From a bacterium (GTDB taxonomy: Bacteria > Sysuimicrobiota > Sysuimicrobiia > Sysuimicrobiales > Segetimicrobiaceae): DNA of 34,910 bases. Positions 18,994 through 34,910 of the stretch are shown here, piece by piece. The stretch spans positions 1 to 34,910 of the forward strand of contig DATGHU010000021.1 of the NCBI GenBank assembly GCA_035307765.1, written 5' to 3'. The translations under genes were made by a program, and so were the position numbers. Under the pieces are notes generated by a model. That model was given only the letters and a program-made list of their open reading frames with translations. It had not been told where the DNA came from and did not search any database. The stretch's first letter is position 1. Each line of letters begins with the position of its first letter.

Positions 18994-19023
18994 TTGACAC
19001 TGGTCTTTGGGCCTCAGTATAAT
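18994..19023 (+). promoter_or_regulatory. Near-consensus promoter of tRNA-Gln
   Basis: TTGACA (18994-18999), 18-bp spacer, TATAAT (19018-19023). Both hexamers are perfect. Start of transcription would be about 13 nt before the mature tRNA. The recombinase reading frame on the other strand ends inside this promoter. Confidence 0.9.
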
Positions 19024-19042
19024 GAGGACGCTTCGCCGCCGT

Positions 19043-19116
19043 TGGGGGATCGTCTAGCGGTAGGACGACGGGCTCTGGACCCGTTAGCGGGGGTTCGAAT
19101 CCTCCTCCCCCAGCCA
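19043..19116 (+). tRNA. tRNA-Gln (anticodon CTG), CCA encoded
   Basis: Acceptor stem TGGGGGA pairs with TCCCCCA; the D-arm follows (TCTAGCGGTAGGA). Anticodon stem ACGGG/CCCGT encloses loop CTCTGGA, so the anticodon is CTG and it reads CAG. The T-arm is GGGGG TTCGAAT CCTCC with one G-T pair. Discriminator G at 19113 and CCA at 19114-19116. The unpaired-style U1-A72 start is typical of tRNA-Gln. Its 3' end is the apparent attachment site of the adjacent islands. Confidence 0.96.
19097..19116 (+). repeat. Attachment-site copy 1: 3' end of tRNA-Gln (attL of island 1)
   Basis: The last 20 bases of tRNA-Gln including CCA. CTCCCCCAGCCA recurs exactly at 25069-25080, with GAATC also matching five bases earlier (17 of 20 in total). 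A third copy at 24814-24829 matches the last 16 bases at 15 positions. Insertion restores the tRNA end, as is usual for islands in tRNA genes. Confidence 0.75.
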
Positions 19117-20777
19117 CCAAAACGCCGATTAGTTGACCCTCCCCGGCCCGCCGCGAGCGTCAGCACCCCCGCGAGCGTCCCGGCGACCTCCGCTTCCAGA
19201 TGGCCCCCGACCGGGTGGAGCGTGACCGTCGTCTGGAACCCGGCGAGGACGGCCTTGGCGCGGTCCACATCTTCGACGGCGAGCAGGGTGTCGAGGTCTG
19301 AGAGGACCTCCCGCACGAGATCGGGGAGCCGCTCCAGCGCGGCCGCGACCCGTGCTGAGTCACCGTCTTCGGGGACACCGGTGGCCGCCACTAACTCGTC
19401 CCGTCGCCGTTGGGCCTCTTCGAGCATCCCCAGCAGGGTCGACGTCGCCTTGCCGAGGCGCACGGCCTGCTTGACGTGCTCGATCTCCCGCTCGATCCCG
19501 CGCAGCGCCTTGGCTTGGTTCTGGGAGGGCCCTGAGACGCGGCGCCCGAGGGCACGCACCCGGTTCGTGAAGGCCGCGAGGTGCTCCTCACCGCAGAGGC
19601 GGTCGCGGAGGATCTCAAGGACGGCCCGCTCAAGGCGCCGCCGCGAGATGGTCAGGTGGTTCGCACAGGCCACCTCGCCCCGGTTGCGGAAGGTCCCGCA
19701 CCGATAGGAGTGTCGCGTGGCGATGGTGTAGTTCCCGCCGCACACCGCGCACTTGACGAACCCGCTGAGCAGGTACTTCCGGCGGCCGTCGCGCTCGCAC
19801 GCCGTCGGGGCCACCCGCTGCGCCGCGAGCCACGCCTGGGCCCGGTCCCAGAGATTCTGTGGGACGATGCGCAACGTCGAGTCCTTCACCTCGATCCAGT
19901 CGCCCATCGGCCGCAGCCGATACGCCTCCCTACGGGTCTCCGGGTTGCGCAGCCACTTCGAGCGGTTCCACAGGACCGTCCCGGTATAGATCGGGTTGTG
20001 CAGGATGCCTTTTCGGAGTTGTCGGTGTGCGGTGATCGCCGTGTAACTCCATGTCGTGCATTGGCGCTTCGCCCGCCCCTGCCACCGCGCGCCCGGCGGG
20101 GCGATCCCGTCCCGGTTCAGGATCTTGGCGACCTCGCGGGCCAAGTGGGGGCGCCCGTCCTCATCGCCGACGTAGAGGCGGAAGATCTTCCTCACGACCT
20201 CGGCCTCGGGCTCGTAGACCACGCGCCGGTGGCCCAGGACCCGAACGATCTGTCCTCGGTCGTCGAGGACGGGTTCGCTGCGGTAGCCGTAGGGGAGGCC
20301 ACCCGCGCTGTACCCTGCCCGAACCCGACCCTCCAGGCCCCGCCAGGTCTTCTCGGCGAGGTCCCGCCTGAACTCCTCGTTCATCACGCCTTTGATCCCG
20401 TAGACGAACCGAGAGGTCTTGGCGTTCGCCAGCGTATCGACACCGTCCGATCTACTCACGAACCCAACGCCGAGGAACTCTAGCACCTTGAAGGCCATCT
20501 ACGCGTCAACGCTGTCGCGGCTGAGGCGCGAGGTGTCGTCAACCAGGAGCACATCAAACTCCCGCCGCTTCGCCGCCGCCATCATGGTCCGGTACCCCGG
20601 CCGCTGGTCCTCGCCGAGCGCGCCGCTGAGCGCGGCGTCGCTGAACTCGTTCACCACGATCCAGCCGCGCTGATCTGCCTCCTGACGACATAGGCGGATC
20701 TGGTCGTCGATCGACGATGCCCGCTGGTTCTCCGAACTGTACCGCGCATAGATCGCCGCTCTCATCTCATTCCCCCT

Positions 20778-21371
20778 TCACAAGCCGGCCTGCTGCTCTT
20801 GCCGCAGGAAGTCCTCGACCTTCACGTCGTTGATCGGCACACGGACGTGGTGCGCCAGCGCATAGGCCGCGAAGTTGTCCATCAGGGATTGGAACCCGTT
20901 CCAGAGATCGTCGCCGTTGGTAGCGCGGTCCTTGCGGACGAAGCCGTGCAGCGCAACCCAGTAGTGCAGGCCCCAGTGGTAGAAGAACTCAAACGCCATG
21001 GCGGTGTCGATGTGCTTGCGATCGTGCATGGTCGCCAAGGACTCGAAGAAGTTGGGCACCTCGTCGCCGATCACGGCGAACGTGGAATCCTGCATGACGG
21101 CATCGGCTTTGTACGCACCGCTGCCCAGTAGATGCCCGGCGAGCGCGCGCCGCCGCGCCATCATTTCAGAAGTCTCGAAGCGCTGCTCGTAGTCCAGCAG
21201 CAGCCGCATCTTGAGGTCCTCGTGCATCATCCGCAACTGTTCGCGGGCCGTCCGATGCTGTTCGGCGATGGCCTGCCGGGCAATGGTGCCCTGCCAGATC
21301 GCGACACCGAGAGCCAGGACCGCCGCCGCAGCGATGATGACCTGGGCCACGTCGACGATTTCTTTCAGCAT
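20778..21371 (-). CDS. One-TM protein of unknown function in island 1
   Basis: A 197-residue protein. ATG 21371 is preceded by GGAGATG; an upstream in-frame ATG lacks such a site. Residues about 6-28 (VAQVIIAAAAVLALGVAIW) form one membrane helix. A charged helical region with possible coiled coil follows (QAIAEQHRTAREQLRMMHEDLKMRLLLDYEQRF). The rest is a soluble helical domain with several aromatic residues (FEFFYHWGLHYWVALHGFVRK). The layout, TM helix plus cytosolic helical domain, recalls DUF4760-type proteins, but I cannot confirm that. It ends 12 bp before the recombinase start and so is probably in one operon with it, in the place taken by the abortive-infection-like gene in island 2. 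Confidence 0.7.
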   Translation of the reverse strand: MLKEIVDVAQVIIAAAAVLALGVAIWQGTIARQAIAEQHRTAREQLRMMHEDLKMRLLLDYEQRFETSEMMARRRALAGHLLGSGAYKADAVMQDSTFAVIGDEVPNFFESLATMHDRKHIDTAMAFEFFYHWGLHYWVALHGFVRKDRATNGDDLWNGFQSLMDNFAAYALAHHVRVPINDVKVEDFLRQEQQAGL

Positions 21372-21436
21372 GGCGTCATCTCCGTGCGGGTCTACTTGAG
21401 GATTAAAAAGACGAAAAGGACCCACATGGATCCAGT

Positions 21437-21454
21437 ATGCTTCTCGAGAAGCAT
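21437..21454. promoter_or_regulatory. Perfect 18-bp palindrome in the divergent region of island 1
   Basis: ATGCTTCTCGAGAAGCAT reads the same on both strands. It sits between the leftward recombinase operon and the rightward small-protein gene, so it is a candidate operator for a dimeric regulator or a recombinase-binding site. As RNA it would form only a short hairpin without a T-run. Confidence 0.55.
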
Positions 21455-21479
21455 GGGCGTCAATGCCTCTCCGGAGCGT

Positions 21480-21509
21480 TTGCCGACCATGCTCACCGGG
21501 AGGTATACT
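21480..21509 (+). promoter_or_regulatory. Promoter of the island 1 small basic protein, probably leaderless
   Basis: TTGCCG (21480-21485), 18-bp spacer, TATACT (21504-21509). The start codon GTG lies six bases after the -10, so the transcript should begin at or next to it. GCTCACCGG (21491-21499) inside the spacer is repeated before the homologous gene of island 2. Confidence 0.65.
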
Positions 21510-21515
21510 TCACTC

Positions 21516-21665
21516 GTGACGCGCAAGAGGAAGAATCCGCACGCCCAGGCGCTCTCCCGCCTCGCCCAGAAGGCCCGGACACGGGCGCTGTCCCCCGAAC
21601 GCCGCTCGGAGATTGCCCGCAAGGCCGCCCGGGCTCGGTGGAAACGGGCGAAAGAGACAAGATAG
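21516..21665 (+). CDS. Small basic protein, RSEIARKAA-type motif (island 1 copy)
   Basis: A 49-residue, Arg/Lys-rich protein starting at GTG 21516: MTRKRKNPHAQALSRLAQK..., then SPERRSEIARKAARARWKRAK near the C-terminus. There is no Shine-Dalgarno, and the -10 lies six bases upstream, so it is probably translated from a leaderless mRNA. The second island encodes a clear relative (MRRRRKDPHAVAMARKAAK..., PPERRAEIARHAVMMRWKRAK) at the same place and with the same promoter spacing. The (S/P)PERRxEIARxAxxxRW motif is seen in many small bacterial proteins and next to helix-turn-helix domains. High positive charge suggests nucleic-acid binding; a regulator of the divergent recombinase operon is my inference. 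Confidence 0.75.
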   Translation: MTRKRKNPHAQALSRLAQKARTRALSPERRSEIARKAARARWKRAKETR

Positions 21666-21679
21666 GCGGAGGTGCAAGA

Positions 21680-22060
21680 GTGTCTCACCAGCGCGATCTC
21701 ATAGGGCCCCTCGCATTGCTTGTGATCGGCGTGATCCTGCTGCTTCGCAACCTCGGCTACCTCCCGGCCTCTTTGGACCAATGGTGGCCGGTGGTCCTGA
21801 TCGTGATCGGTCTGGGAATTATCCTCCGTCGATCCAGTCCGGACGAGATGGTGCTCCCGAAAGAACCAAGCCCCGCCGCGCCGGGTTCCGCACGGCAGCC
21901 GGGGACCATGAAGGGACGCCGCCATTCTACGACCGGTGGCTTGATCTTGATCGGCCTTGGGTTAGCGTTCCTCGCCAGTAATCTGTTCGGCGGTCGGAGC
22001 ACCGGCGCGCTAGTCATGATCGCCCTGGGACTTGCGCTCCTCATCGGCCGTATCTGGTAG
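21680..22060 (+). CDS. LiaF-like / DUF5668-type small membrane protein
   Basis: A 126-residue protein starting at GTG 21680 after GGAGGTGCAAGA, 14 bp after the small basic gene. Two helical hairpins, each of two membrane segments, are visible: LIGPLALLVIGVILLLRNLGYLP with WWPVVLIVIGLGIILRRS, and TTGGLILIGLGLAFLASNLFG with LVMIALGLALLIGRIW. The spaced GLxxxxxNLG and WWPVxLIxxG signatures are those of the LiaF transmembrane / DUF5668 domain, here duplicated and without the cytosolic C-terminal domain of LiaF. Such proteins often take part in envelope stress sensing. The role here is unknown. Confidence 0.8.
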   Translation: MSHQRDLIGPLALLVIGVILLLRNLGYLPASLDQWWPVVLIVIGLGIILRRSSPDEMVLPKEPSPAAPGSARQPGTMKGRRHSTTGGLILIGLGLAFLASNLFGGRSTGALVMIALGLALLIGRIW

Positions 22061-22142
22061 GGGCCCAGCGGAGAGCGGACAAGCCCGAGGGTGCGAGAAC
22101 CACCCACGCGCTGGCCCAGTCCTCCGGGGCGACCGAAATGAG

Positions 22143-22922
22143 ATGCTCGCGCTGATGCTGTCACTCCCACTCGTGCGCTTCTTGCTATGGATGATCGCTG
22201 CGGTGGTCATCGCCATCGCCCGAGTCCATCCGGAGATTCACCGCTTTCTCCTGGTGATTTCGTCCGGCCTGACAGTCGATCGCTTTCGCCAAATCATCGC
22301 ACCGTGGGGGCCATGGGCAGCGGGGGCATCCATTCTTATCATGGTCGTGCAGACATTTCTTCCACTACCCGCCGACCTCTTGATCATGGCCAACGGCGCT
22401 GCGTTCGGGATCTGGGAAGGCCTCGTCGTATCCATCATCGGAGCGGTCCTGAGCGGGTGCGTCGCTTTCGGGCTCGGGCGGATCTTGGGACGTGGCGTTG
22501 CCCTCCGTATCATGCCCGCGTCACTCGTAGATTGGGTAGGCGACATTGCGGCTCACGGAGCCTGGATGGCCGTCCTGTTGCTCCAGTTCATCCCGCTCAT
22601 TCCTTTCAGCCTGCTGAACTTTCTCTTGGGGCTGACCCGGCTGTCGTGGATGACCTTCCTTTGGACGCTTGCCGCGAGCATCCTGCCCGCCGACGTGATC
22701 CTTGTTATGCTCGGGCGCGGGGTGGGGGAGGGGCACAGCGCCGTGCCGTGGGCGCTCGCCGCGTTGGGGCTGCTCACCATCGCGAGCGTGACCCTTCGGT
22801 CCCGGCTCGCACGTGTGTGGCAAGCCCCGCAGATGCCGCCGGTAGTCGACCGACCAGGACGCCGGGTCCCGCCCGCCAGTCTCGATCTGCATGACCCTGG
22901 AGGGAGGGACCCCAGGGGGTGA
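22143..22922 (+). CDS. VTT-domain (TVP38/TMEM64, DedA-like) membrane protein
   Basis: A 259-residue polytopic protein. ATG 22143 is the first start that gives a hydrophobic N-terminus; the open frame upstream to 22032 overlaps the previous gene. About six membrane segments and the family core are visible: QTFLPLPADLLIMANGAAFGIWEG (the VTT re-entrant segment), the Gly-rich GAVLSGCVAFGLGRILGRG, and LLLQFIPLIPFSLLNFLLGLTRLSWMTFLW. This family includes lipid scramblases and undecaprenyl-phosphate or ion transporters. The C-terminal 40 residues are Pro/Arg-rich and probably cytosolic. It follows the LiaF-like gene by 82 bp and is probably co-transcribed. Confidence 0.88.
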   Translation: MLALMLSLPLVRFLLWMIAAVVIAIARVHPEIHRFLLVISSGLTVDRFRQIIAPWGPWAAGASILIMVVQTFLPLPADLLIMANGAAFGIWEGLVVSIIGAVLSGCVAFGLGRILGRGVALRIMPASLVDWVGDIAAHGAWMAVLLLQFIPLIPFSLLNFLLGLTRLSWMTFLWTLAASILPADVILVMLGRGVGEGHSAVPWALAALGLLTIASVTLRSRLARVWQAPQMPPVVDRPGRRVPPASLDLHDPGGRDPRG

Positions 22923-22989
22923 CCGAGGGGCGCTCGCGCCAGCGGGCGTCGGCGACCGCGACCGCCGCCTCCTTCCAAGCCGTCATCGC

Positions 22990-23214
22990 TCAGCGTCGCC
23001 GGTGCACCTCGTTCGTGTATTGGGTGTAAAGGCTCGGGTCGCGCTTGAAGACCTCGACGAACGCCTGGGCCTCGGTCAACCGGCCGCCGCTCGACTTGGC
23101 CAATTCCTTGGCCATTGAGCGCGCCTTCCGCTCCGCCCGCGACTTCCCGGCTGCCTCTGCCCCGTCGCCGTCATCCCTGTTCCCGCCGACGGCGTCGAGC
23201 ACGTCAGACGCCAT
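22990..23214 (-). CDS. Small acidic/basic protein of unknown function
   Basis: A 74-residue protein; ATG 23214 follows ATAAGGAC. The N-terminal part is acidic (DVLDAVGGNRDDGDGAE), the middle is basic (KSRAERKARSMAKELAKSSG), and the end reads LTEAQAFVEVFKRDPSLYTQYTNEV. The last segment resembles short C-terminal helices of phage-associated hypothetical proteins, but I do not recognise the family. It is convergent with the VTT gene and lies downstream of the REC-REC-GAF gene on the same strand, with 78 bp between. It is probably real because of the start signal and its non-random composition. Confidence 0.5.
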   Translation of the reverse strand: MASDVLDAVGGNRDDGDGAEAAGKSRAERKARSMAKELAKSSGGRLTEAQAFVEVFKRDPSLYTQYTNEVHRRR

Positions 23215-23292
23215 GTCCTTATCCCACTTGGCCACAAGTAGACAGCGAAACGTGGAGCACCCTCGATCCAGCGGCACCAATGTGCTGGTGGT

Positions 23293-24714
23293 TCATGAGC
23301 TTCTGATCGATGCGGCCAGCGCCTTGATCATCCCCAGGGTTTGCCCGAGTCGGGCTCCGACGGTCCTCGCAAAAGGCAGCATCTCATCCGTGAACACCCT
23401 CGTGCCGGACGTCATGGCGAGTGCGCCGAGGCACGCGGTGTCGTTGAGAATTGGGGCGATAAGCGCCGTCTGGTCCGACCGCTCGCTGGGACGTATGACC
23501 TCCTCTGGCATGGTGAAGGAGAAAATCAGAGCGGGCGTTTGCTCTTGGATCAAGCGATGGAGCACCTCAGCGTGGCCGAAGAAGTCGCCTATGGCCTGCT
23601 CGGCCGAATACGGAAACCCACAGTGCGCTCGGGGCAGAAGGGCCCCATCAGACCCGAGCAAGTAAATGATCCCCTTGGACACACCCACCGTATGCAGGAT
23701 CCGGTCAAGTATCTCATCCAGGATCTCATCCACGGAGCCTTGCTTGAGCCCACCCAAGAAAGCCGAAAGAACGGCCATCTCAGCTTCTCGCCGCATCAAT
23801 CGTTCCCGGATGTTCGCATTGAGATTCACTTGCCGATTGAGTTGCTGTCCAAGCCGTTGCGCGTAGCTCTCTCTCAGTTCGGACGTGAGGGCGGTCGCTG
23901 GCGGTGGTGTCATGCTCAGGGCGGCGGTCACGGCATTAATAATCGACTCGTACCCTGGTGACATCACCACCAACTCACTGGCTCCCACTTCACGCGCGAA
24001 TTGACGGTCGGTGTCGTCGCCTAACGCTAAGGAGAAGAGCACCACCGGGACAGCGGCGAGCACAGGATCCTTTCGTATCGTCAGACAGAATTGAAAGCCG
24101 TCCATCTGCTGCAGCAAGATGTCGGCCAGGATCAGATCGGGCGGAGACTCACGGGCGTAGGCGAGCGCTTGGGTCACATCCGAGCAGTGTGCAACGGCGA
24201 ACCCCGCGCGCACCAACCGGCCTTTGATCAGGTTGAGGATGATCGGATCCTGATCTACGACAAGGAGTCGTTGCCCCACTCCAACCCGTTCGTGGCTGTC
24301 CTTCGTCGGCAGGTAGGTTTCGATGGTCTCGAGGAGGAGCGCTGGCACGATCGGTTTGAAAAGGTAATCGGTGAACCCGACCTCGATGCTCCGCGCCTCT
24401 TCGAGCCTTGTCATGACCCCCGAATAGGCGATGACTGGCATCTCTGCGCCGCCTGGGAGGGTTCGAAGCTTCTGAATAACCTCAAATCCGTCGATGTCCG
24501 GAAGGGCCAGATCTAGAATGACGAGGTCGGGGTGATGTGCCATCTGCTTGAGAGCGGAGCGTCCGTCCCGAGCTTGAAGCACGGCGTACCCGGCCTTCTC
24601 CAACGCCACCCGGACGATTTTCAGACCATTGGGGTGGTCTTCAGCGACCAATACAGTATATGGTTTCTGATCGACAGACGGTTCGGGCGATGTACTTGAA
24701 TACTGTCGCTCCAA
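23293..24714 (-). CDS. Two-receiver response regulator with C-terminal GAF domain
   Basis: Translation most likely starts at TTG 24714, eight bases after GGGAGGTGA, giving 473 residues. The first receiver (about 20-135) has acidic E25/D26, phospho-acceptor D68 (VILDLALPDIDG), S98 and K120 (LFKPI), so it looks functional. The second (about 150-270) keeps D154/D156 and D198 (LILADILLQQMDG), but the conserved Lys is missing (VVMSPGYES), so its switch is probably impaired. A linker helix (RQVNLNANIRERLMRREAEMAVL) leads to a GAF domain (GVSKGIIYLLGSDGALLPRAHCGF ... GALAMTSGTRVFTDEMLPFARTVGARLGQ). There is no DNA-binding, kinase or cyclic-di-GMP domain. It probably works by binding partner proteins; no histidine kinase is nearby. 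Confidence 0.88.
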   Translation of the reverse strand: MERQYSSTSPEPSVDQKPYTVLVAEDHPNGLKIVRVALEKAGYAVLQARDGRSALKQMAHHPDLVILDLALPDIDGFEVIQKLRTLPGGAEMPVIAYSGVMTRLEEARSIEVGFTDYLFKPIVPALLLETIETYLPTKDSHERVGVGQRLLVVDQDPIILNLIKGRLVRAGFAVAHCSDVTQALAYARESPPDLILADILLQQMDGFQFCLTIRKDPVLAAVPVVLFSLALGDDTDRQFAREVGASELVVMSPGYESIINAVTAALSMTPPPATALTSELRESYAQRLGQQLNRQVNLNANIRERLMRREAEMAVLSAFLGGLKQGSVDEILDEILDRILHTVGVSKGIIYLLGSDGALLPRAHCGFPYSAEQAIGDFFGHAEVLHRLIQEQTPALIFSFTMPEEVIRPSERSDQTALIAPILNDTACLGALAMTSGTRVFTDEMLPFARTVGARLGQTLGMIKALAASIRSS

Positions 24715-24813
24715 GGCGAGGTCACCTCCCACGAGTTTCCGAGGACCAGTGAAAAATGTTTCGACTGGTCTACCTGTGGTCGGTCGTGCCGCCGAAGGTG
24801 GCAGCACCTCCCA

Positions 24814-24829
24814 CCTCGTCCCCCAGCCA
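24814..24829 (+). repeat. Attachment-site-like copy 2
   Basis: CCTCGTCCCCCAGCCA matches the last 16 bases of tRNA-Gln at 15 positions. It lies 247 bp before copy 3, in the non-coding stretch 24715-25047. It may be an earlier integration scar or an alternative right end of island 1. A near-palindrome around GCCCATGGGC (24850-24859) follows. Confidence 0.5.
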
Positions 24830-24919
24830 TGTTCCCCCGGGCATGTAGCCCATGGGCCTGGGATGTTCAGGAGCCTCGTTTCTAGACGTGCTCCTTGACT
24901 AACCCCGTTGGTAACTCAT

Positions 24920-25033
24920 ATGAGTACCCGCGATAAGATCTCCTCAGACCTCAGCGAGCCTTCCCCGGCGCGAGCCGAGCCCCCTCAGCCGACGTCAGAA
25001 GGGGCTAAACCGTCAGCGGCACGCGCACCGTGA
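24920..25033 (+). CDS. Doubtful small ORF in the 24715-25047 gap
   Basis: The 333-bp gap between the REC-REC-GAF gene and recombinase 2 has no convincing gene. This 37-codon frame (MSTRDKISSDLSEPSP...) lacks a ribosome-binding site and is disordered in composition. Its last codons, TSEGAKPSAARAP followed by TGA, resemble the end of a frame at 32221 (TSEGGGLKPRVARGP), so the stretch may be part of a repeated element end rather than a gene. Confidence 0.2.
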   Translation: MSTRDKISSDLSEPSPARAEPPQPTSEGAKPSAARAP

Positions 25034-25034
25034 G
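24991..25034 (+). repeat. Dispersed repeat, copy A (right end of island 1)
   Basis: GACGTCAGA, GGGCTAAA, CCG, GGCACGCG, ACC and TGAG occur in the same order here and at 32173-32222, with one 6-bp gap and a few substitutions. Here it ends 27 bp before attachment copy 3. Confidence 0.6.
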
Positions 25035-25047
25035 CGATTCTCCCAGG

Positions 25048-26724
25048 TCAACAAGTGGAGGAATCGGGCTCCCCCAGCCAACGTTTTTGACCTGCGATCG
25101 ACCCGAGTAGGGGAAAGATCCCTTCTAGTTTCCCCGTGATCTCGACCTCGAGGTGATCCCCGCAGGGGTGCAGCGTGACCTTGGTGTCGAGCGCGCTCAG
25201 GATCTGCTTGCCCCGCTCGATCTGATGATCGGCGAGCAGGGCGTCGAGATCCGTGAAGCGCTCTGCCACCAGCTCCGGCAGCTGGTCAAGCACGCGCGCG
25301 AGACGCTCGGGCACCCCGCTACTGTTCCCGCCGTCGGCGGCCGAGAGGGTCGCGAGGCGGCGCTCGGCATCCTCCAGCATCTCGAGCAGGGTCGAGGTCG
25401 CTTTCCCAAGGCGCACCGCCTGCTTCACGTGCTCGATCTCCCGCTCGATCCGGCGCCGCTCCTTGGTCCGGTTCTCGCTCCGCGTCTCCAGGGCGTGCCG
25501 GCGGGCGCGCTCCACGAGGGCCTCGCGCACCCGGTCGGTGATCGCACGAATTCGCTCCTCGGTGTAGAGGCGGGTGCGCAGCGCCCCGAGCACGGTCGCC
25601 TCCAACCGCCGGCGGGAGACGGCGAGCGAGTTCGAGCACCCGACGGGCCCGCGGCTCTTGAACGTGCCGCAGCGGTAGCTGTGCCGCGTCGTGATGATGT
25701 AGTTCCAGCCGCAGGTCGCGCACTTCACGAACCCGCTGAGGAGATAGCGGTGCTGCGCCGGGGCCATCGGTTTCCCGCCGATGCGGCACGCGGCCATGCG
25801 CGCGCGGGCGCGGTCCCAGAGGTCCTGCGGGACGATGCGCAGCTCGGGGGCATCGATCTCGACCCACTCGTCCGGCCGGCGGAGCTGGTAGGTCTCGCGC
25901 TTGGTCACGGGGTGCCGGAGCCAGCGCGTCTTGTTCCAGACGTGCTTGCCGACGTAGAGGGGGTTGTGCAGGATCCCCTTGCACAGGCTCCGGTGCGCGG
26001 TGATCGCGGTGAAGCCACACGTCGCGCACTGGCGGGTCGTCTTGCCCTGCCGGCGGGCGCCGGCGGGCGGGATCCCGTCCAGATTTAGCGCATGCGCGAT
26101 CTCGCGGGCGGAGTGGGGGTGCCCGCCCTCGTCGCCGACATAGAGCCGGAAAATTCTCCTCACGACCTCGGCCTCCGGCTCGTGGATCACGCGCTTGTGC
26201 CCCACGACCTGGCCGCGGCCGTCCAGTACAGCCTCCGACCGGTAGCCGTAGGGTAATCCGCCCGCGCTGTAGCCGGCCCGCACGCGCCCCTCGAGGCCGC
26301 GCCAGGTCTTCTCGCCGAGGTCGCGGAGGAATTCCTCGTTCATGGCCGACTTGATCCCGTACAGCAGGCGGGAGCTCTTGCCGTTGGCCACGGTGTCGAT
26401 GCCGTCGGCGCGCGCGACGAACTTGACGCCGAGGAAGTCGAGCATGCGCAGCGTGACCGTGGCGTCCGCGCTATCGCGGCTGAGGCGCGAGCTATCGTCG
26501 ACCACGAGCACGTCGAACTCCCGGCGCGACGCCGCGGCCATCATCTCCCGAAACCCCACCCGCTGGTCCTCACCGAGGGCGCCGCTGAGCGCCTCGTCCT
26601 TCTAGGTCGACACGACCGTCCAGCCGCGCCGCTCGGCCTCAGCCTTGCACAGGCGGATCTGGTCCTCGATCGACGACGCCCGCTGGTTCTCGCTGGAGTA
26701 CCTTGCGTAGATCGCCGCCCTCAT
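25048..26724 (-). pseudogene. Large serine recombinase (island 2), interrupted by one in-frame TAG
   Basis: A close relative of the island 1 recombinase over its full length. The catalytic domain reads MRAAIYARYSSENQRASSIEDQ and ALSGALGEDQRVG, then VDDSSRLSRDSADATVTL. TAG at 26604-26602 falls between GWTVVST and KDEALSGAL, earlier than in the first copy. After it the frame is open to the end: recombinase domain (GLPYGYRSEAV, KGILHNPLYVG), zinc ribbon (KCATCGWN...YRCGTF...CSNS) and a coiled coil (KERRRIEREIEHVKQAVRLGKATSTLLEMLEDAERR). The tail (KRWLGEPDSSTC) is encoded by attachment copy 3. ATG 26724 follows GGCGGAGA. The only other start after the TAG is ATG 26559, which would lack the catalytic serine, so without readthrough the product is inactive. 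Confidence 0.88.
25061..25080 (+). repeat. Attachment-site copy 3: junction of the two islands
   Basis: GAATCGGGCTCCCCCAGCCA matches the tRNA-Gln 3' end at 17 of 20 bases, with the last 12 identical. Like copy 1 it is followed after a short AA-CG stretch by TTGACC and then by a leftward serine recombinase gene, whose C-terminal codons cross it. It would be the right end of island 1 and the left end of island 2. Confidence 0.75.
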
Positions 26725-26761
26725 TCTCCGCCCCCCCTTTTGTATGCTCCATGGCGGTTCG

Positions 26762-27571
26762 TCACCTCTTCGCGGCCAGCGCCCGTTGCGCAACATATTG
26801 TACCGTCGCTTCAGTTACTTGGAGCACAAAACTCGCGTCTTCACGCGAGGGCAGGGGTGGATGGCTCCCTGGGCGGGAAGTCACGTTGAAGAAGGCTTCA
26901 AGAAGTGATGCTAACGCATCGACGAACGCTGCCTCGTGCTGATTGAATATCCCCTGCTTCACCAACGCCTGTTTCCCTTTAGCAAAATTCGTTGTCCCTG
27001 TGATGGTGCGGATCAGGCTCTCGATGGCGTTCCTGCAATTGGTTTTGACGTCGCCCATCGCTTCGGCAGTACCCTCTTCGAAACGTCGCCTGGCGTTGGT
27101 GAGATAAGTGACGGCCTCGGTGATGCCCAACTTTGATGAGAGCTCGTGCAGCATGATGATGTCCCGTGTCAATCGCTGAGCAACTGCCTCGACGGCATCC
27201 CTTCTGATCTTCCCGGTCGCGTTGACTGCTGTTCGAGGAAACGCAATCAAAAAAGGATTCTGGAAGCCGAATTCGCGCTGCACCTCCCTCATGACGATCT
27301 GGGGGTCGACGTCCGATTGATTCCTGGCATCTTTGTATCTCAGGCTGGCGGTATCTCCCGATGCAGGATCGCCGACAATTACCACCACCATCGGTCCATA
27401 CCATACGTAGCGATGATGGGGATGCTCCCACTGCAGTCTTGTCCTACTCAACCCATGAGACTTCAGCTGAGTCTGCGCAGCTTGGATGACCACATTCATA
27501 AAGTCTTCGAGCGCCTCCCGGTCGGGAGCGGGCAAATCACTATGGTCGTAAGCCATGCTGGGTCGCCACAT
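26762..27571 (-). CDS. Abortive-infection-like protein of unknown function (island 2)
   Basis: A 269-residue soluble protein; ATG 27571 is preceded by GGAG at 8 bases. The N-terminal half is a mixed domain (LQWEHPHHRYVWYGPMVVVIVGDPASGDTASLRYKDARN), followed by helical segments. The C-terminal 100 residues (NCRNAIESLIRTITG... FVDALASLLEAFFNVTSRPGSHPPLPSREDASFVLQVTEATVQYVAQ) resemble the C-terminal domain of abortive-infection family proteins, in which a conserved SREDA-type segment precedes a last helix. This is a weak resemblance, not a firm assignment. It ends 37 bp before the recombinase start and shares its strand, in the slot filled by an unrelated one-TM protein in island 1, as expected for exchangeable cargo such as phage-defence genes. 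Confidence 0.55.
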   Translation of the reverse strand: MWRPSMAYDHSDLPAPDREALEDFMNVVIQAAQTQLKSHGLSRTRLQWEHPHHRYVWYGPMVVVIVGDPASGDTASLRYKDARNQSDVDPQIVMREVQREFGFQNPFLIAFPRTAVNATGKIRRDAVEAVAQRLTRDIIMLHELSSKLGITEAVTYLTNARRRFEEGTAEAMGDVKTNCRNAIESLIRTITGTTNFAKGKQALVKQGIFNQHEAAFVDALASLLEAFFNVTSRPGSHPPLPSREDASFVLQVTEATVQYVAQRALAAKR

Positions 27572-27608
27572 ACTATCACTCCAAGTCAATTTTCTAGTCG
27601 CGCAAGAC

Positions 27609-27669
27609 GAGTATACCATACTCACCGAAGAGTATACAGGCGAACACGCTCACCGGTGTGTAGTATAAT
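27609..27669. promoter_or_regulatory. Divergent promoter/operator region of island 2
   Basis: GAGTAT-ACC-ATACTC (27609-27623) is an inverted repeat; GAGTATAC recurs at 27630-27637, so two GTATAC cores are 21 bp (two helical turns) apart. CTCACCG occurs at 27621 and again in GCTCACCGG (27648-27656), the word shared with island 1. Rightward TATAAT (27664-27669) lies six bases before ATG 27676, with no clear -35. Leftward, TATACT (27615-27610) could serve the abortive-infection-like gene. Confidence 0.6.
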
Positions 27670-27675
27670 ACGCTC

Positions 27676-27828
27676 ATGAGACGACGCCGGAAGGACCCCC
27701 ACGCAGTCGCGATGGCACGTAAGGCGGCGAAAGCTCGGATGGTGAAGATCCCGCCCGAGCGACGTGCGGAGATCGCAAGGCACGCGGTCATGATGCGCTG
27801 GAAACGGGCGAAAGCGGGGCGGGCGTAG
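27676..27828 (+). CDS. Small basic protein, RAEIARHA-type motif (island 2 copy)
   Basis: A 50-residue protein homologous to the one at 21516: RRRRKDPHAVAMARKAAKAR at the N-terminus and PPERRAEIARHAVMMRWKRAK at the C-terminus. ATG 27676 is six bases after a perfect TATAAT and has no Shine-Dalgarno, so the mRNA is probably leaderless, as in island 1. It diverges from the leftward operon with the abortive-infection-like and recombinase genes. Strong net positive charge and a helical C-terminus suggest DNA or RNA binding. Its conservation while the neighbouring cargo changes suggests it serves the island itself, for example as a repressor or as a partner for the recombinase; that is inference. 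Confidence 0.75.
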   Translation: MRRRRKDPHAVAMARKAAKARMVKIPPERRAEIARHAVMMRWKRAKAGRA

Positions 27829-27974
27829 GGGGGGCTGTAGAGCTCCCGCCTGCCTTGAGTGTACATTACTAGAAACTGAGTCCAGGAAAACACGCTTTGG
27901 ATTCTTATGGGTGGGGGAGAAGCCTGGCAAATGGTCGTGCCAAGTACAGTAAGCGATTCAAGGGGGGCATCATC

Positions 27975-28478
27975 ATGGACATCTCGCTCTTGATCCTTCG
28001 GCTCGTGATCGGGCTCTTCGTTGCCGGCCATGGCACGCAGAAGCTCTTCGGGTGGTTTGAAGGGCACGGGCTGAAGGGTACGGCGGGCTGGCTCGGATCG
28101 ATGGGCCTTCGGCCCGCAGGCGTCTGGGCGTTCCTGGCCGGCCTCGCCGAGTTCGGCGGAGGCGTACTGTTCGCTCTTGGTCTCGCGAGCCCACTGGGCG
28201 CGCTCGGGATCAGTGCCGCCATGGTGGTCGCGATCACGGGGGTGCACTGGCCGAAGGTATGGGCGGCCAAGGGTGGCTTTGAACTCCCCTTGATCAACCT
28301 CGCGGTCGCGGCGGCGGTGGGGATCGCGGGACCCGGTGGGTTCTCCCTAGACCAGCAGTTCGGGACGGCCCTTCCAGGGCCGGCCGCGCGTGTGGTCACC
28401 GTGCTCGTGGTTCTCGGCTGGCTCGCTGTCTTGACGATGAAGGCCGTGCGACCGGCGACCAACAACCCTTCCCACTAA
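27975..28478 (+). CDS. DoxX family membrane protein
   Basis: A 167-residue protein with four membrane segments and the family signature ILRLVIGLFVAGHGTQKLFGWFEGHGLKG at the N-terminus, then AGLAEFGGGVLFALGLASPLGALGISAAM and HWPKVWAAKGGFELPLINLAVAAAVGIAGPG. ATG 27975 follows AAGGGGGGCATC. DoxX-like proteins are found in thiosulfate:quinone oxidoreductases and in redox-stress membrane complexes, but most short members have no proven role. It stands alone, 146 bp after the small basic gene, as rightward cargo of island 2. The 268 bp that follow, up to the UbiD gene, show no convincing gene or terminator. Confidence 0.9.
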   Translation: MDISLLILRLVIGLFVAGHGTQKLFGWFEGHGLKGTAGWLGSMGLRPAGVWAFLAGLAEFGGGVLFALGLASPLGALGISAAMVVAITGVHWPKVWAAKGGFELPLINLAVAAAVGIAGPGGFSLDQQFGTALPGPAARVVTVLVVLGWLAVLTMKAVRPATNNPSH

Positions 28479-28746
28479 GCGATCGGCCGGTGACTCCTAC
28501 CGCTGCCCGACCTAATGAGCCGCCCCTTTCCAAGTGCCCGACTAAAGATTGAGCGGGCATACTACCATCTGGACTGCCTTGAACAGAAGATCCGTTTGTT
28601 CTCCGCCAGCCCATCTTCCCGATGCTCTCCTCCCCCTCTCCGAAGCTTGCGAGGTCTCGGTTGGAGGTTCCGGAGGTAGAGTGGTGACCCTCTTTTCATG
28701 GAGGACGCCTCCTCCAGTGTTAACACTAGATCGAAACAGTACAACC

Positions 28747-30141
28747 CTAGAGTGTGATCCCCGCCCGCCCCAGGATGGAGCGGATGCGCGTGCGCTGCGC
28801 GTCTGCGATGGTCAAGCGTTCCCCGAAATCCTCCCCGATCGGCGTGGTTGCGTCGATGCCGACCTTGGTGACGGTGTGATCGCCGGGGTCTGAGGTGGGG
28901 TCAAGCACCGCACCCATCGCGCCGGGGATTAGGATGAGACCTTTCTCCGCCCGCGTCCGGGTCAGGACCGCCCAGATGACATCCGAGAGATTGAAGATGT
29001 CGACGTCGTCGTCGACGACGATCGCCCATTTCATATAATACTCCGTCCCGAACGTGCTCATCATCGCCTGCTGCGGCTGGCCTTCTGCGGTCTTTTTCAT
29101 AGAGATGATCGCCATCAGCGCACCGACCCCGGCCGTCGGCACGTGGACGGCCCTTACATTGGGCAGGTTGCGGCGCAGGGCGTTTAGGATCTCCGCCTCG
29201 CGGCTGATGGAGCCCACGAGGATGTGGTCGGCCGCCGTTCCGGATGCGATGCTGTGAAACATCGCATCACGCCGCATCTGCACGCACTTCGCCACGAAGA
29301 CGTTCTGCGTGCTGCGATGGGACGCATAACCGGTGAACTCGCCGAAGGGGCCTTCGGGTTCGCGCACCTCGTTCAAGATCTCCCCTTCGATCACGATCTC
29401 GGCACCCACAGGTACCTCGAGGTCCACCGTTCGGCAGCGGGCGACGCGATAGGGCGCGCCGAAGAGTCCGCCGATGATCTCGTATTTCCTCACTTGAGAC
29501 GGATAATGGTAGGCCATCGAGCCCATGTAGTGGAGCGGATGGACGCCGAGGACGACTACAGCGGGAAGAGACCGGCCGCGGGCCTCTGCGCGGCGGTGGA
29601 ACTCGTACATGCGCCGCCGGGAATGCAGCGAAACGCCCAACCGGTTCTTATCCTTCAGCATCAGCCGGTGGAAGCCGGTCGTGTCGACGCCGGTCTCGGG
29701 ATCGCGCGCCACGATCTGGCCGGCCGTGATGTACGGTGCCGCGTCGACCGCGAAGTGCCGGGGGATGGGGAGCCGCGTCAGGTCGATGTCTTCCCCTTCC
29801 CACACCGCGTCGTGCCACGGCGCGCGGTCGACGAGCTCCACGGGCTGATAGTGCTGACAGCGCTCGCGATAGGCGGTCGCCACTTCGTCGGGCCGCACTC
29901 CCAGGGCCGCGGCGAGCAGCTTGCGATTGCCCGCGAGGTTTGTGACGACGGGCAGCGGCGAGCCCTCCACGTGCTCAAAGATCATCACCGGGCTTTTGCC
30001 GGCGCGCGCGAGCTCGAATACGGCCGAAGTGATGTCGAGATCTCGGCGTACCGGCGCGGAGATCCGCACGATCTCGTCGGGATAGTCGGACTCGACCATC
30101 TCGAGATACGCCCGCATGCTTTGATCGTCTGACGAACCCAT
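28747..30141 (-). CDS. UbiD family decarboxylase
   Basis: UbiD enzymes reversibly decarboxylate aromatic or unsaturated acids using prenylated FMN. The 464-residue product covers the family: SPVMIFEHVEG, NRKLLAAALGV, HFAVDAAPYITAGQIVARDPETG and RLGVSLHSRRRMYEFHRRAEARG for flavin and metal binding, the catalytic-region EPEGPFGEFTGYASH, and the C-terminal AIVVDDDVDIFNLSDVIWAVLTR. The glutamate-rich EPEGPFGE segment is intact. No UbiX-type prenyltransferase, which makes the cofactor, is in the window. The substrate cannot be predicted. The ribosome-binding site before ATG 30141 is weak. It may be island cargo or part of the chromosome beyond the island. Confidence 0.92.
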   Translation of the reverse strand: MGSSDDQSMRAYLEMVESDYPDEIVRISAPVRRDLDITSAVFELARAGKSPVMIFEHVEGSPLPVVTNLAGNRKLLAAALGVRPDEVATAYRERCQHYQPVELVDRAPWHDAVWEGEDIDLTRLPIPRHFAVDAAPYITAGQIVARDPETGVDTTGFHRLMLKDKNRLGVSLHSRRRMYEFHRRAEARGRSLPAVVVLGVHPLHYMGSMAYHYPSQVRKYEIIGGLFGAPYRVARCRTVDLEVPVGAEIVIEGEILNEVREPEGPFGEFTGYASHRSTQNVFVAKCVQMRRDAMFHSIASGTAADHILVGSISREAEILNALRRNLPNVRAVHVPTAGVGALMAIISMKKTAEGQPQQAMMSTFGTEYYMKWAIVVDDDVDIFNLSDVIWAVLTRTRAEKGLILIPGAMGAVLDPTSDPGDHTVTKVGIDATTPIGEDFGERLTIADAQRTRIRSILGRAGITL

Positions 30142-30158
30142 CGTTCTTGGAAATCCCC

Positions 30159-30422
30159 TTACTTCAGGTTGTGAAGGTCCCGAACTGCGGGGCCGAAGGG
30201 CAACTTGGCGGCGCTAAGAGACTCGCTCATGACGAAGTTCGCGGTCCGCACGGCGGCGTAGTGGCCTGGAGGGAGGAGTGCGCGAGGCTCCGGAACAGTT
30301 TGTGCGTGCGGTATCAGCAGCGCCCGATCCCATTTCCCGCGGCTCCGCAATCTTCCGCTGGACCCTGACCTCCTCCTAAGTCCGGCCCGCACCAACACCT
30401 GGGCATACTCCCGAATTTCCAT
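30159..30422 (-). CDS. Doubtful ORF in the 30142-30686 gap
   Basis: The 545 bp upstream of the UbiD gene hold this 87-codon frame (MEIREYAQVLVRAGLRRRSG..., ending VRTANFVMSESLSAAKLPFGPAVRDLHNLK). It lies 17 bp before the UbiD start on the same strand. The N-terminal third is low-complexity Arg/Ser/Gly, typical of a chance frame, while the last 40 residues look more protein-like and could be a remnant of a decayed gene. There is no clear ribosome-binding site. I see no other gene in this gap. Confidence 0.25.
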   Translation of the reverse strand: MEIREYAQVLVRAGLRRRSGSSGRLRSRGKWDRALLIPHAQTVPEPRALLPPGHYAAVRTANFVMSESLSAAKLPFGPAVRDLHNLK

Positions 30423-30686
30423 CTGTGGTTGAAGTCAAGACGAAGCAGGTGTTCGCCGACGGCTCATCACATCCTCTTCTTCTCGAGCGTCTGCAGTTGG
30501 CCGCCGAGTGACGTCCTTTAGACACTGCAGTCGGCACGAGACTCCTCCAAAAGTTGCACGCCACCCATGAGGGCCTCCGGCTGACCTCGTCACGTCCGCT
30601 CCGTCATCGAGAGGGAGGCCGGGTCAACGCTCGGCCACATAATTTGTGCTCCGGCCGTGGCCGGGTAGCCTCCGGATGCAGATCTT

Positions 30687-30729
30687 TTCATAATTTCTTC
30701 ACGAGATTTTCACCGGGACCGTTTACCAT
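30687..30729 (+). promoter_or_regulatory. Three 11-bp TTCAY direct repeats and -10 upstream of yceI
   Basis: TTCAT at 30687, TTCAC at 30698 and TTCAC at 30709 are spaced exactly 11 bp. TACCAT (30724-30729), a possible -10, starts 10 bp after the last repeat, and there is no -35 hexamer at the usual place. This is the layout of PhoB/OmpR-family activator sites that replace the -35. The leader to ATG 30818 would be about 80 nt. Confidence 0.55.
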
Positions 30730-30817
30730 GACTGTGGTGGTACTCGGACCAATCGGGACACCCGCGGGTCGCGTGATCGGGCGGATGCCGCGTATCCCAG
30801 CGCGAAAGGAGAAACAC

Positions 30818-31531
30818 ATGGGTTGCAAATGGAAGGGCTGGACGCGGTTACAGTGGCGGGACGGCGTGCCTGGACGCCGCGTGATTCCTCCGATGCTGGC
30901 GCTGTTGCTGGCGGCCTGGATACCCTTCGGCAGCGTGCTCTGGATGGCGCCCGTCCACGCGGCGGCGGCGGTTTCGGCCGCAGTAGGCGTCGAGCGGTTC
31001 GTGATTGATCCGTCGGCATCGGAGGCGCTCTACCACGTCGGCGAAACGTTCTTCAATAGGAACAACCAGTTCAAGGTCGCGGTCGGCACCACGCACGGGA
31101 TCCAGGGCCAGATCCTGATCGATCGGGTCCATCCGTTGCAGAGCCGGATCGGGCCGATCAGTGTGGACATCAGTCAGCTCACTTCGGACAGCCGCCGGCG
31201 CGACCGGGAGATCCGAAGCCAGTGGCTCGAATCATCGCGATATCCGACCGCGGTGTTCACCCCGACCGCGATCGATGGACTCCCAGGCGCCTATGTGGAT
31301 GGCCGCGCGATCCCTGTCAGGATTGCCGGAAGCCTCGAGGTCCATGGCGTTACCAAGCCGGTCCTCTTCGCGGGCACAGTCACGCTCAGCGGACAGACGC
31401 TGTCCGGTGACGCCACCGCGAGCGTTCTGATGACCGACTTCGGATTCGATCCGCCGTCCCTCCTGGGCTTTCTCCAGGCGCAGAACAAGGTGGAACTGGA
31501 GATCCAATTTACTGCGCACCCCGGGCAGTAG
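30818..31531 (+). CDS. Exported YceI family protein
   Basis: YceI proteins are periplasmic lipocalin-like barrels that bind isoprenoid or other hydrophobic molecules. ATG 30818 follows AAAGGAG. The first 45 residues are a long basic n-region and hydrophobic core (IPPMLALLLAAWIPFGSVLW) ending near VHAAAAV, a Sec signal. The mature part shows the family pattern: FVIDPSASEALYHVGETF, VAVGTTHGIQGQILID, IGPISVDISQLTSDSRRRDREIRSQWLESSRYPTAVFTPT and LEVHGVTKPVLFAGTVTLSGQTLSGDATASVLMTDFGFDPPSLLGF. Total of 237 residues is normal. It has its own upstream regulatory region. Confidence 0.92.
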   Translation: MGCKWKGWTRLQWRDGVPGRRVIPPMLALLLAAWIPFGSVLWMAPVHAAAAVSAAVGVERFVIDPSASEALYHVGETFFNRNNQFKVAVGTTHGIQGQILIDRVHPLQSRIGPISVDISQLTSDSRRRDREIRSQWLESSRYPTAVFTPTAIDGLPGAYVDGRAIPVRIAGSLEVHGVTKPVLFAGTVTLSGQTLSGDATASVLMTDFGFDPPSLLGFLQAQNKVELEIQFTAHPGQ

Positions 31532-31658
31532 CAGACGCGCCTCCGGCGCACGCGCCGTGTGAGACAGAAGGGGCCGTCCTGGCAGCACGGTGGTCCTCAT
31601 CGACGGCGATTGAGAGCGTCGCCGAGCCACTCATCTTCCCCGGAGAGGAGGGAGGCGA

Positions 31659-31874
31659 ATGAGCGTGTATCCACAGGGCGGACAAATGTGTGTGTGCGGC
31701 GCCGAGTTGCAGCGGTTGGGGGAGGGGGAACATTTTGAGGTCCCGCTCACACACGCGACGCTCGAGCATAGGGCGGGGATTGAGGTGGAGGTATTTCGCT
31801 GCCCGACGTGTCGCCGAATTGAGTTTTTCCAAGTGGGAGGCGGACCAGAAGCCATCGTACGTTACGGCGGCTGA
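31659..31874 (+). CDS. Small zinc-ribbon protein
   Basis: A 71-residue protein starting at ATG 31659 behind GGAGGCGA. Cysteines are in two groups, MCVCGAELQRLG and VFRCPTCRRIEFF, about 38 residues apart, which fits one zinc-ribbon site although the first pair is CxC rather than CxxC. The strand-rich segment between them (EVPLTHATLEHRAGIEVEV) supports a rubredoxin-like or ribbon fold. It follows yceI by 127 bp on the same strand. No function is known; it is unlike the other two zinc-ribbon proteins in the window in sequence. Confidence 0.7.
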   Translation: MSVYPQGGQMCVCGAELQRLGEGEHFEVPLTHATLEHRAGIEVEVFRCPTCRRIEFFQVGGGPEAIVRYGG

Positions 31875-31930
31875 GCCGAGGCGGTCAAAGACTGTCGCCA
31901 TCGTCGTCACTTCCGTCGGCTTCGTCGTGG

Positions 31931-32221
31931 TTGTCGCGGGGAGGGACGGCCGATAGCCGTGCCTTCATCACGGCTCCACTTCCAGTTAGCGCGGACTCCC
32001 GGTACCACGTTGCCGCTCCCACCGTCGGGGATCATGAGGATCGGGGTGCCGCTTCTCGCTCCAAGGAACGCCCCCGAGTAGCCGCCGAGGTCGCTGGCGA
32101 CCATCTACCCGAGGGTCTCGGCCAATTGCCCGACCCAGCCGATGTCCCCCCCATGATAGTATGCAAGGCTGAGACGTCAGAGGGAGGAGGGCTAAAGCCG
32201 CGAGTGGCACGCGGACCCTGA
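31931..32221 (+). CDS. Doubtful ORF in the 31875-32345 gap, ending in the dispersed repeat
   Basis: The 471-bp gap between the zinc-ribbon gene and the small secreted protein holds this 96-codon frame. It has no ribosome-binding site and no recognisable domain. Its last codons (TSEGGGLKPRVARGP, TGA) lie in repeat copy B, and the same ending is seen in a frame at 25033. It is probably non-coding DNA or a remnant. Confidence 0.2.
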   Translation: MSRGGTADSRAFITAPLPVSADSRYHVAAPTVGDHEDRGAASRSKERPRVAAEVAGDHLPEGLGQLPDPADVPPMIVCKAETSEGGGLKPRVARGP

Positions 32222-32222
32222 G
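32173..32222 (+). repeat. Dispersed repeat, copy B
   Basis: Counterpart of 24991-25034: GACGTCAGA, GGGCTAAA, CCG, GGCACGCG, ACC and TGAG in the same order, 50 bp here against 44 there. In island 1 it sits directly inside the right end, so here it may mark an end of island 2. Confidence 0.6.
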
Positions 32223-32345
32223 GGGGTCAAATGCCAGGAGAATAGCGCCACTGCGTCTAGCCGGGCGGCCAGCGGGGTACTCTCCCCAAGTGAAGGGGTG
32301 AGACGGAGGGCACGTTTGAGGTTTGGTGACGCGGAGGTCAAGGAG

Positions 32346-32696
32346 ATGAGGAAGATCGTTTGGACGTGGTTGGCCATTACGCTGTGCTTGGCGGCCGTCC
32401 CCCTCGCCGCCCGGGCGCAGTCGATGGGTACATGTCTCGCGATTAGCAATACTTATGACGGGCAGGCCGTGTCCATTACCGTGGATGGCTGGGGGAGTGG
32501 CACGTGGGATTATGCCCCGTATGAGGGCATTTCGGGTTTGTCAGTCCACGGCGAACGGATTCACAGCGGTCTATCTAACGGGGCTTTCACCATCCACTGG
32601 ACCGGGTCCCATACCGTGTCTTGGCAATGGGAAGGTGACTACACCGGTGAGAATGGCGGCGAATGTGCCGGGGAGTGGGTTGGATACATTCACTGA
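32346..32696 (+). CDS. Small secreted protein of unknown function
   Basis: A 116-residue protein; ATG 32346 is preceded by GGAGGT at seven bases. Residues 1-23 (MRKIVWTWLAITLCLAAVPLAARA) are a classic signal peptide with an ARA-Q cleavage site. The mature part of about 93 residues has two cysteines (GTCLAISN near its start and GECAGEW near its end) that could form a disulfide, and many Trp and Gly residues (VDGWGSGTWDYAPYEG, HTVSWQWEGDYTGENG). That composition suggests a small secreted beta-sheet domain, perhaps carbohydrate- or surface-binding. I do not recognise the family. Confidence 0.7.
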   Translation: MRKIVWTWLAITLCLAAVPLAARAQSMGTCLAISNTYDGQAVSITVDGWGSGTWDYAPYEGISGLSVHGERIHSGLSNGAFTIHWTGSHTVSWQWEGDYTGENGGECAGEWVGYIH

Positions 32697-32717
32697 ACTG
32701 AGAACAAGATTCTCAGT
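32697..32717 (+). terminator. Hairpin directly after the small secreted protein
   Basis: ACTGAGAA and TTCTCAGT form a perfect 8-bp stem with a 5-nt loop, starting at the base after the stop codon. No T-run follows, so it is at best a weak intrinsic terminator or a 3' stabilising hairpin. Confidence 0.4.
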
Positions 32718-32735
32718 CCTGTGGCACGGCTGGGC

Positions 32736-32755
32736 GAATCGGGCTCACCCGGCCA
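32736..32755 (+). repeat. Attachment-site-like copy 4 (possible right end of island 2)
   Basis: GAATCGGGCTCACCCGGCCA differs from copy 3 (25061-25080) at only two of 20 bases, and from the tRNA end at five. It shares the GGG triplet that distinguishes copy 3 from the tRNA. Confidence 0.45.
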
Positions 32756-34788: not shown

Positions 34789-34794
34789 CCATGC

Positions 34795-34910
34795 ATGAGC
34801 CGACCCGCCGCGCCCCTGACGGTCCTGGAGGCGCAACGTCGTGAGATTCACCGACACCTGCGCCAACGCACGCTGCCCATGGGACGAGCGCTCCGCCTGC
34901 GCGCCGTCTT
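34795..34910 (+). CDS. Probable IS630-type transposase, N-terminus only
   Basis: The frame runs off the window after 38 codons: MSRPAAPLTVLEAQRREIHRHL then RQRTLPMGRALRLRAV. The pattern L-T-x-x-E-x-x-x-L followed by a basic R(S/Q)RT segment and RALRLRAV matches the beginning of IS630 transposases and their helix-turn-helix domain. The catalytic DDE part is outside the window, so the assignment is tentative. An ATG four bases earlier is in another frame. Confidence 0.5.
   Translation, partial: MSRPAAPLTVLEAQRREIHRHLRQRTLPMGRALRLRAV

Follow-up and report, generated by a model that had tools for sequence, protein, structure and literature searches.

Putative tandem integrative elements at a tRNA-Gln gene and their interrupted large serine recombinase genes

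How did the 3′ end of a tRNA-Gln(CTG) gene come to be followed by two homologous large serine recombinase (LSR) genes, each abutting a copy of that end? The window examined here, 34,910 nucleotides long, is the entire contig G000:C21 of a Sysuimicrobiota genome (G000; 3.8 Mb, 96% complete), and a first-pass annotation had assigned its two leftward LSR genes, here termed rec1 and rec2, to two tandem islands with one backbone and different cargo. Sysuimicrobiota (CSP1-3) once belonged to Armatimonadota (PMC11604079). Our analysis supports the view that two separate integrative elements targeted to tRNA-Gln lie in tandem in the window, with attachment (att) boundaries and different cargo. Very probably, two related islands entered the tRNA-Gln(CTG) 3′ end successively, their integrases were later lost to amber codons, and the array became fixed. 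tRNA genes were called by ARAGORN and domains by Pfam, with further family scans against NCBIfam, PADLOC and PHROGs, the last limited to a few proteins. The sample of relatives comprised 43 genomes of the phylum, which GTDB assigns to one class and one order, and synteny was compared in the nine family relatives whose contigs continue past tRNA-Gln. Features are listed in Table 1.

Boundaries and order of the two elements

The 3′ 20 nucleotides of the tRNA-Gln gene (19097-19116), which form part of the left attachment site (attL) of element 1, recur at 25061-25080 with 17 of 20 positions matching and at 32736-32755 with 15 of 20. A search for GAATCNNNCTCCCCCAGCCA that tolerates at most two mismatches matches exactly these three sites in the window, against 0.02 expected in shuffled sequence. 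With the intact tRNA at the left, a tRNA-Gln 3′ fragment in the same orientation closes the far end of each island, and each island has an integrase gene on board adjoining an att copy, two of the features by which Islander-type islands are defined. The C-terminal codons of rec1 are an antisense reading through tRNA-Gln, so that this gene adjoins the intact 3′ end; rec2 adjoins the displaced copy at 25061-25080. Element 1 accordingly spans ~19117-25080 and element 2 ~25081-32755. The right attachment sites (attR) of both have the same P half, GAATCGGGCT, which differs from the tRNA sequence GAATCCTCCT at three positions, and together these facts place the crossover in CTCCCCCAGCCA. The G+C content is 64% in each element versus 70% upstream. 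The first-pass annotation had correctly set the LSR genes against the copies at 19097-19116 and 25061-25080; it had overlooked the role of 32736-32755 as the far end of element 2, as well as the in-frame TAG codons in both genes.

A further stretch resembling the tRNA-Gln 3′ end (CCTCGTCCCCCAGCCA, 24814-24829, 15 of 16 positions; 0 in 200 shuffles) lies just upstream of the receiver/GAF gene and is possibly an older att site. It could mark the right end of element 1, but the copy at 25061 is the better candidate: it contains the P half common to both elements, and its right half matches G004, a relative from another genus. Near the right ends of the elements lie alike stretches of 44-50 bp (24991-25034 in element 1, 32173-32222 in element 2), and a 37 bp stretch matching them occurs in inverted orientation soon after tRNA-Gln in G001.

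Similarity to the relatives, which runs through gltX, a zinc-ribbon open reading frame (ORF) and tRNA-Gln, ends at 19116-19117 in all nine, and the region beyond is thus not the ordinary conserved chromosome that the first-pass annotation had named as the outcome fatal to its proposal. Past tRNA-Gln most relatives carry different DNA; G008 and G009, two members of one genus, have DNA in common there that the window lacks. The next shared landmark, tRNA-Glu(CTC), was located in three relatives (G006, G007 and G008), 3.3-7.2 kb farther on, and in G000 itself it is on a separate contig, beside the same FAD-oxidase gene. The differing DNA between tRNA-Gln and tRNA-Glu makes this interval a variable site. 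By eye, the contig end at 34790-34910 and the first kilobase of another contig (G000:C31:1-1000, L091) resemble pieces of insertion-sequence transposases, a likely reason for the assembly break between the two tRNA genes. Near tRNA-Gln, on its downstream side, two relatives (L040 in G006, L046 in G001) have ORF pieces that look, by eye, like tyrosine integrase C-termini, and the site therefore seems to be used by both integrase families.

The order of arrival is suggested by a junction. Deletion of 19117-25080 in silico joins the tRNA-Gln end to ACGTTTTTGACC, and the identical 12 bases follow tRNA-Gln directly in G004. This relative matches only the junction free of element 1, and all relatives have other DNA after tRNA-Gln; the match fits a state in which element 2, or a relative of it, stood directly at the tRNA before element 1 came. 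In the G004 locus (L044, G004:C127), tRNA-Gln is followed by GGQKRWLGEEDSNPR, a remnant of a rec2-type C-terminus, and beyond it, by eye, by an rmuC-like gene and apparent type I CRISPR-associated genes.

The G004 junction, which already points to a single-element state at tRNA-Gln, bears on whether a single element entered and its LSR and basic-protein genes were then copied in place. We regard such a local duplication as very unlikely, even though rec1 and rec2 pair as sisters in the LSR sample. The two genes have diverged at both nonsynonymous and synonymous sites (dN 0.29, dS 0.87; ratio 0.33), each comes with a separate att copy and P half, and the elements share only the LSR and the small basic protein, with different intervening genes and cargo. 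The divergence and the att bounds together speak against a recent local duplication, the second outcome that the first-pass annotation had set against its own proposal.

The integrase genes and their clade

Both genes encode Resolvase, Recombinase and Zn_ribbon_recom domains (Pfam), with a match to the integrase family phrog_95 (PHROGs); they are 63% identical in amino acids, confirming the annotated homology, and 70% identical in nucleotides over 1.6 kb (blastn). Among curated families rec2 matches CcrB best, at 61.8 bits against an equivalog cut-off of 900 bits. No relative of rec2 was found in viral contigs, and phage and plasmid records gave only distant LSRs, the best among the matches listed being <35% identical.

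Each gene is interrupted by an amber codon. In rec1 it follows codon 88 (...SRDSVDA, stop, MAFK...), and in rec2 it follows ...WTVVST, at a position that is Trp, one transition from TAG, in the intact homologue of G020. In both genes the stop comes after the catalytic Ser motif, YARYSSENQ, and cuts it off from the rest of the protein, so neither fragment should be active, and both islands are probably immobile and stranded. Since dN is below dS, the genes appear to have been constrained for most of their history, and the premature stops are probably recent. The same ratio, the otherwise open frames and the fact that both interruptions are TAG might instead indicate that these codons are suppressed or recoded and the integrases functional. 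That reading is the least credible of those considered: the two TAGs are at different, nonhomologous sites, one of them replacing the Trp of G020, full-length related LSR genes in the alignment have no internal stop, and no evidence of a suppressor was found.

From the boundaries, order, intact tRNA, stops and different cargo observed in the window we propose a history in which these LSRs would have catalyzed the insertions. A CcrB-like LSR would join attP, which holds its own copy of the acceptor-stem end (CTCCCCCAGCCA), to that end of the chromosomal tRNA; the incoming copy would restore tRNA-Gln, and the displaced fragment would remain at the far end. Element 2 would have arrived first. Element 1 would then have entered the regenerated tRNA end and pushed element 2 outward, leaving rec2 against a hybrid tRNA fragment. 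Each LSR gene would later have acquired its amber codon, most likely fixing the array, with the cargo now behaving as ordinary chromosomal genes. Several points weigh against this history. Among the genomes compared, no closely related strain offers an empty site, so that the element ends have had to be inferred; the far att copy has decayed; the copy at 24814-24829 makes the right end of element 1 uncertain by ~230 bp; the contig stops at 34910, with the original right flank outside it; and the two TAGs are known from the assembled contig alone.

Within the 43-genome sample, rec1 and rec2 cluster with the LSRs of G020 and G033 (support 100/100). Three of the four members of this Gln clade (rec1, G020 and G033) are at an intact tRNA-Gln(CTG), and the fourth, rec2, is at the displaced copy. 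LSRs of the sister group are located at tRNA-Leu(GAG), tRNA-Leu(CAA) and tRNA-Met. At the loci of both groups the LSR frame extends antisense as far as the tRNA 3′ end, and mostly finds its stop codon there (for example ...WLGEEDSNPR, ...GAGRGI). The genome of the window also carries a related LSR element of ~18 kb (G000:C7:2496-20442; L084, L047), which lies between tRNA-Leu(GAG) and a displaced tRNA-Leu fragment at a distance of 18 kb, with an uninterrupted integrase, a DnaB-like helicase and an NB-ARC/LuxR regulator; the element of G001 has a primase-polymerase gene. With their helicase and primase-polymerase genes, these relatives look more complete than the two elements of the window. On G005:C83 an LSR abuts a tRNA-Leu fragment where the tRNA itself is absent, which, after rec2, is a second case of displacement. 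An LSR clade dedicated to tRNA genes is the somewhat new part of the finding. One could go further and suppose an LSR lineage specialized on tRNAs, its subclades retargeted among Gln, Leu and Met, in which the tail codons and stop come from the tRNA in the integrated state and from attP in the circular state. As the integrase frame continues antisense into the tRNA, the tail would then report the state of integration and could steer directionality; we consider this extension improbable.

Slot genes, basic proteins and cargo

The first-pass annotation had envisaged a family of islands with a fixed module of recombinase, small basic protein and att site, and an exchangeable slot. Two elements at tRNA-Gln with att boundaries and different cargo bear out part of this proposal, and the gene order agrees between them: next to the LSR comes a slot gene on its own strand, and then the basic-protein gene, which points the other way. 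The family scans confirm that the slot genes, which lie just upstream of the LSRs, differ, and the small basic proteins (21516 and 27676) are homologues (60% identity, E=7e-12), these and the LSRs being all that the two elements convincingly share. The upstream stretches of the basic-protein genes are also similar (GCTCACCGG...TATA), with palindromes in both elements that are possible operators (ATGCTTCTCGAGAAGCAT and GAGTATaccATACTC), and the protein could on this reading be a regulator or directionality factor. As a general scheme, however, the fixed module with its swapped slot gene is doubtful. Across the 43 genomes, this arrangement of LSR, slot gene and basic protein was seen only in the two copies of the window. 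In G020, the nearest LSR relative with upstream sequence, a gene of 92 aa directly precedes the LSR and no basic protein is nearby; related loci have genes of 75-98 aa before the LSR, with a similar LAxxIAxxI motif by eye. Basic-protein homologues in G004-G006 and G023 do not adjoin these LSRs, and the family, whose signature is NPxAxALxRxxxxARxxxLSPxxRxEIxRKAxxARW, occurs elsewhere in these genomes without an LSR. The small basic protein was therefore rejected as a marker of an element family. The two window elements may share it through common descent of those two alone.

The annotated rightward membrane-protein cargo was recovered in both elements, as LiaI/LiaF-type and VTT proteins in element 1 and DoxX in element 2. 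An abortive-infection assignment for slot gene 2 found no support in Pfam, NCBIfam or PADLOC. Consistent with the annotated nonconjugative character, no relaxase, coupling protein or type IV secretion system domains were found among the main ORFs, as would mark integrative and conjugative (ICE) or mobilizable (IME) elements; nor did Pfam find phage structural genes there, as would mark a prophage (PHROGs covering a few proteins only). Transfer would thus have been passive or helper-borne. The UbiD family decarboxylase has no close homologue in the family relatives. The cargo, with membrane, signaling and metabolic functions, is unremarkable, and the window copies are probably fossils.

Table 1. 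Coordinates and assignments of features in the window
Feature	Coordinates	Strand	Basis
tRNA-Gln(CTG), intact, target gene	19043..19116	+	ARAGORN; relatives' synteny ends at 19116
rec1, LSR	19014..20765	-	Pfam domains, homology; in-frame TAG 20499-20501
Slot gene 1, DUF4760 membrane protein, weak SLATT_4 similarity; likely ATG start near 21371	20778..21425	-	Pfam DUF4760 9e-7, SLATT_4 6e-4
18-bp perfect palindrome ATGCTTCTCGAGAAGCAT, between divergent slot gene 1 and basic protein 1	21437..21454		Sequence
Small basic protein 1, GTG start	21516..21665	+	60% identity to copy 2, E=7e-12
Cargo, LiaI/LiaF-type transmembrane protein	21653..22060	+	Pfam
Cargo, VTT/DedA-type membrane protein, true start probably internal to ORF	22032..22922	+	Pfam VTT_dom 2e-21
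Cargo, protein with two receiver domains and GAF	23293..24807	-	Pfam
attR of element 1 fused to attL of element 2: P half GAATCGGGCT, then CCCCCAGCCA, then element-2 ACGTTTTTGACC	25061..25080	+	Sequence comparison
rec2, LSR	25048..26724	-	Pfam domains, homology; in-frame TAG 26602-26604
Slot gene 2, without family assignment, helical C-terminal half, start uncertain	26762..27625	-	Low-confidence AlphaFold model, pLDDT 61
Inverted repeat GAGTATaccATACTC, upstream of basic protein 2	27609..27623		Sequence
Small basic protein 2	27676..27828	+	Homology to copy 1
Cargo, DoxX family membrane protein	27897..28478	+	Pfam 4e-20
Cargo, UbiD family decarboxylase	28747..30141	-	Family scans
Cargo, YceI-like secreted protein, true start probably near 30819	30554..31531	+	Pfam 3e-20
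Cargo, predicted secreted protein, no family match	32298..32696	+	Sequence scan
attR of element 2: P half GAATCGGGCT and decayed tRNA-Gln 3′ fragment CACCCGGCCA	32736..32755	+	Sequence comparison

Comparison with known systems

tRNA genes are not usually the targets of serine-type integrases. One exception in the open-access literature is Paracoccus phage vB_PamS_Pami6, whose serine recombinase is predicted to integrate in tRNA-Met (PMC6536676); that is an active phage and a single case, with no tandem array described. The loci described here provide a phylum-level case of serine rather than tyrosine integrases docking at tRNA genes, and the design of the Islander tool assumed that serine integrases do not use them. 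Their anatomy yields predicted attP/attB pairs for several tRNA-specific LSRs, some with intact genes (G020, G000:C7), and the intact LSRs are candidate genome-engineering tools that would enter a conserved tRNA site without destroying the tRNA.

Islander-type tRNA islands (PMC4383910) likewise run from an intact tRNA at one end to a displaced, identically oriented 3′ fragment at the other and have an integrase on board, but they carry tyrosine integrases, whereas those of the window are serine recombinases. Tandem accretion is also shared with the accretion arrays of ICEs and cis-mobilizable elements (CIMEs) (PMC5704250). With the CcrA/CcrB/CcrC systems of SCCmec the window shares CcrB as the best family match of rec2 and the single-site integration of a cargo cassette; SCC differs in its CcrA/CcrB pair and its target (PMC3146451), and rec2 is far under the CcrB cut-off.

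The nearest published analogue is the ssrA islands of Dehalococcoides (DsiB; PMC3146451), and their layout is nearly the same, contrary to the first-pass statement that no named element had it. They too form a tandem array downstream of one RNA gene, with a CcrB-like LSR marking the left edge, the 3′ end of its gene overlapping attL and its stop codon coming from outside, with RNA-gene 3′-end repeats of ~20 bp and variable cargo, and some of them are probably fixed (PMC3146451). The target there is a tmRNA (ssrA), and here tRNA-Gln(CTG). The Dehalococcoides module comprises six genes; among them are DsiA, which is a second and small serine recombinase, and homologues of ParB and Mom, none of which were found here, and there was no second serine recombinase among the scanned ORFs of the window.

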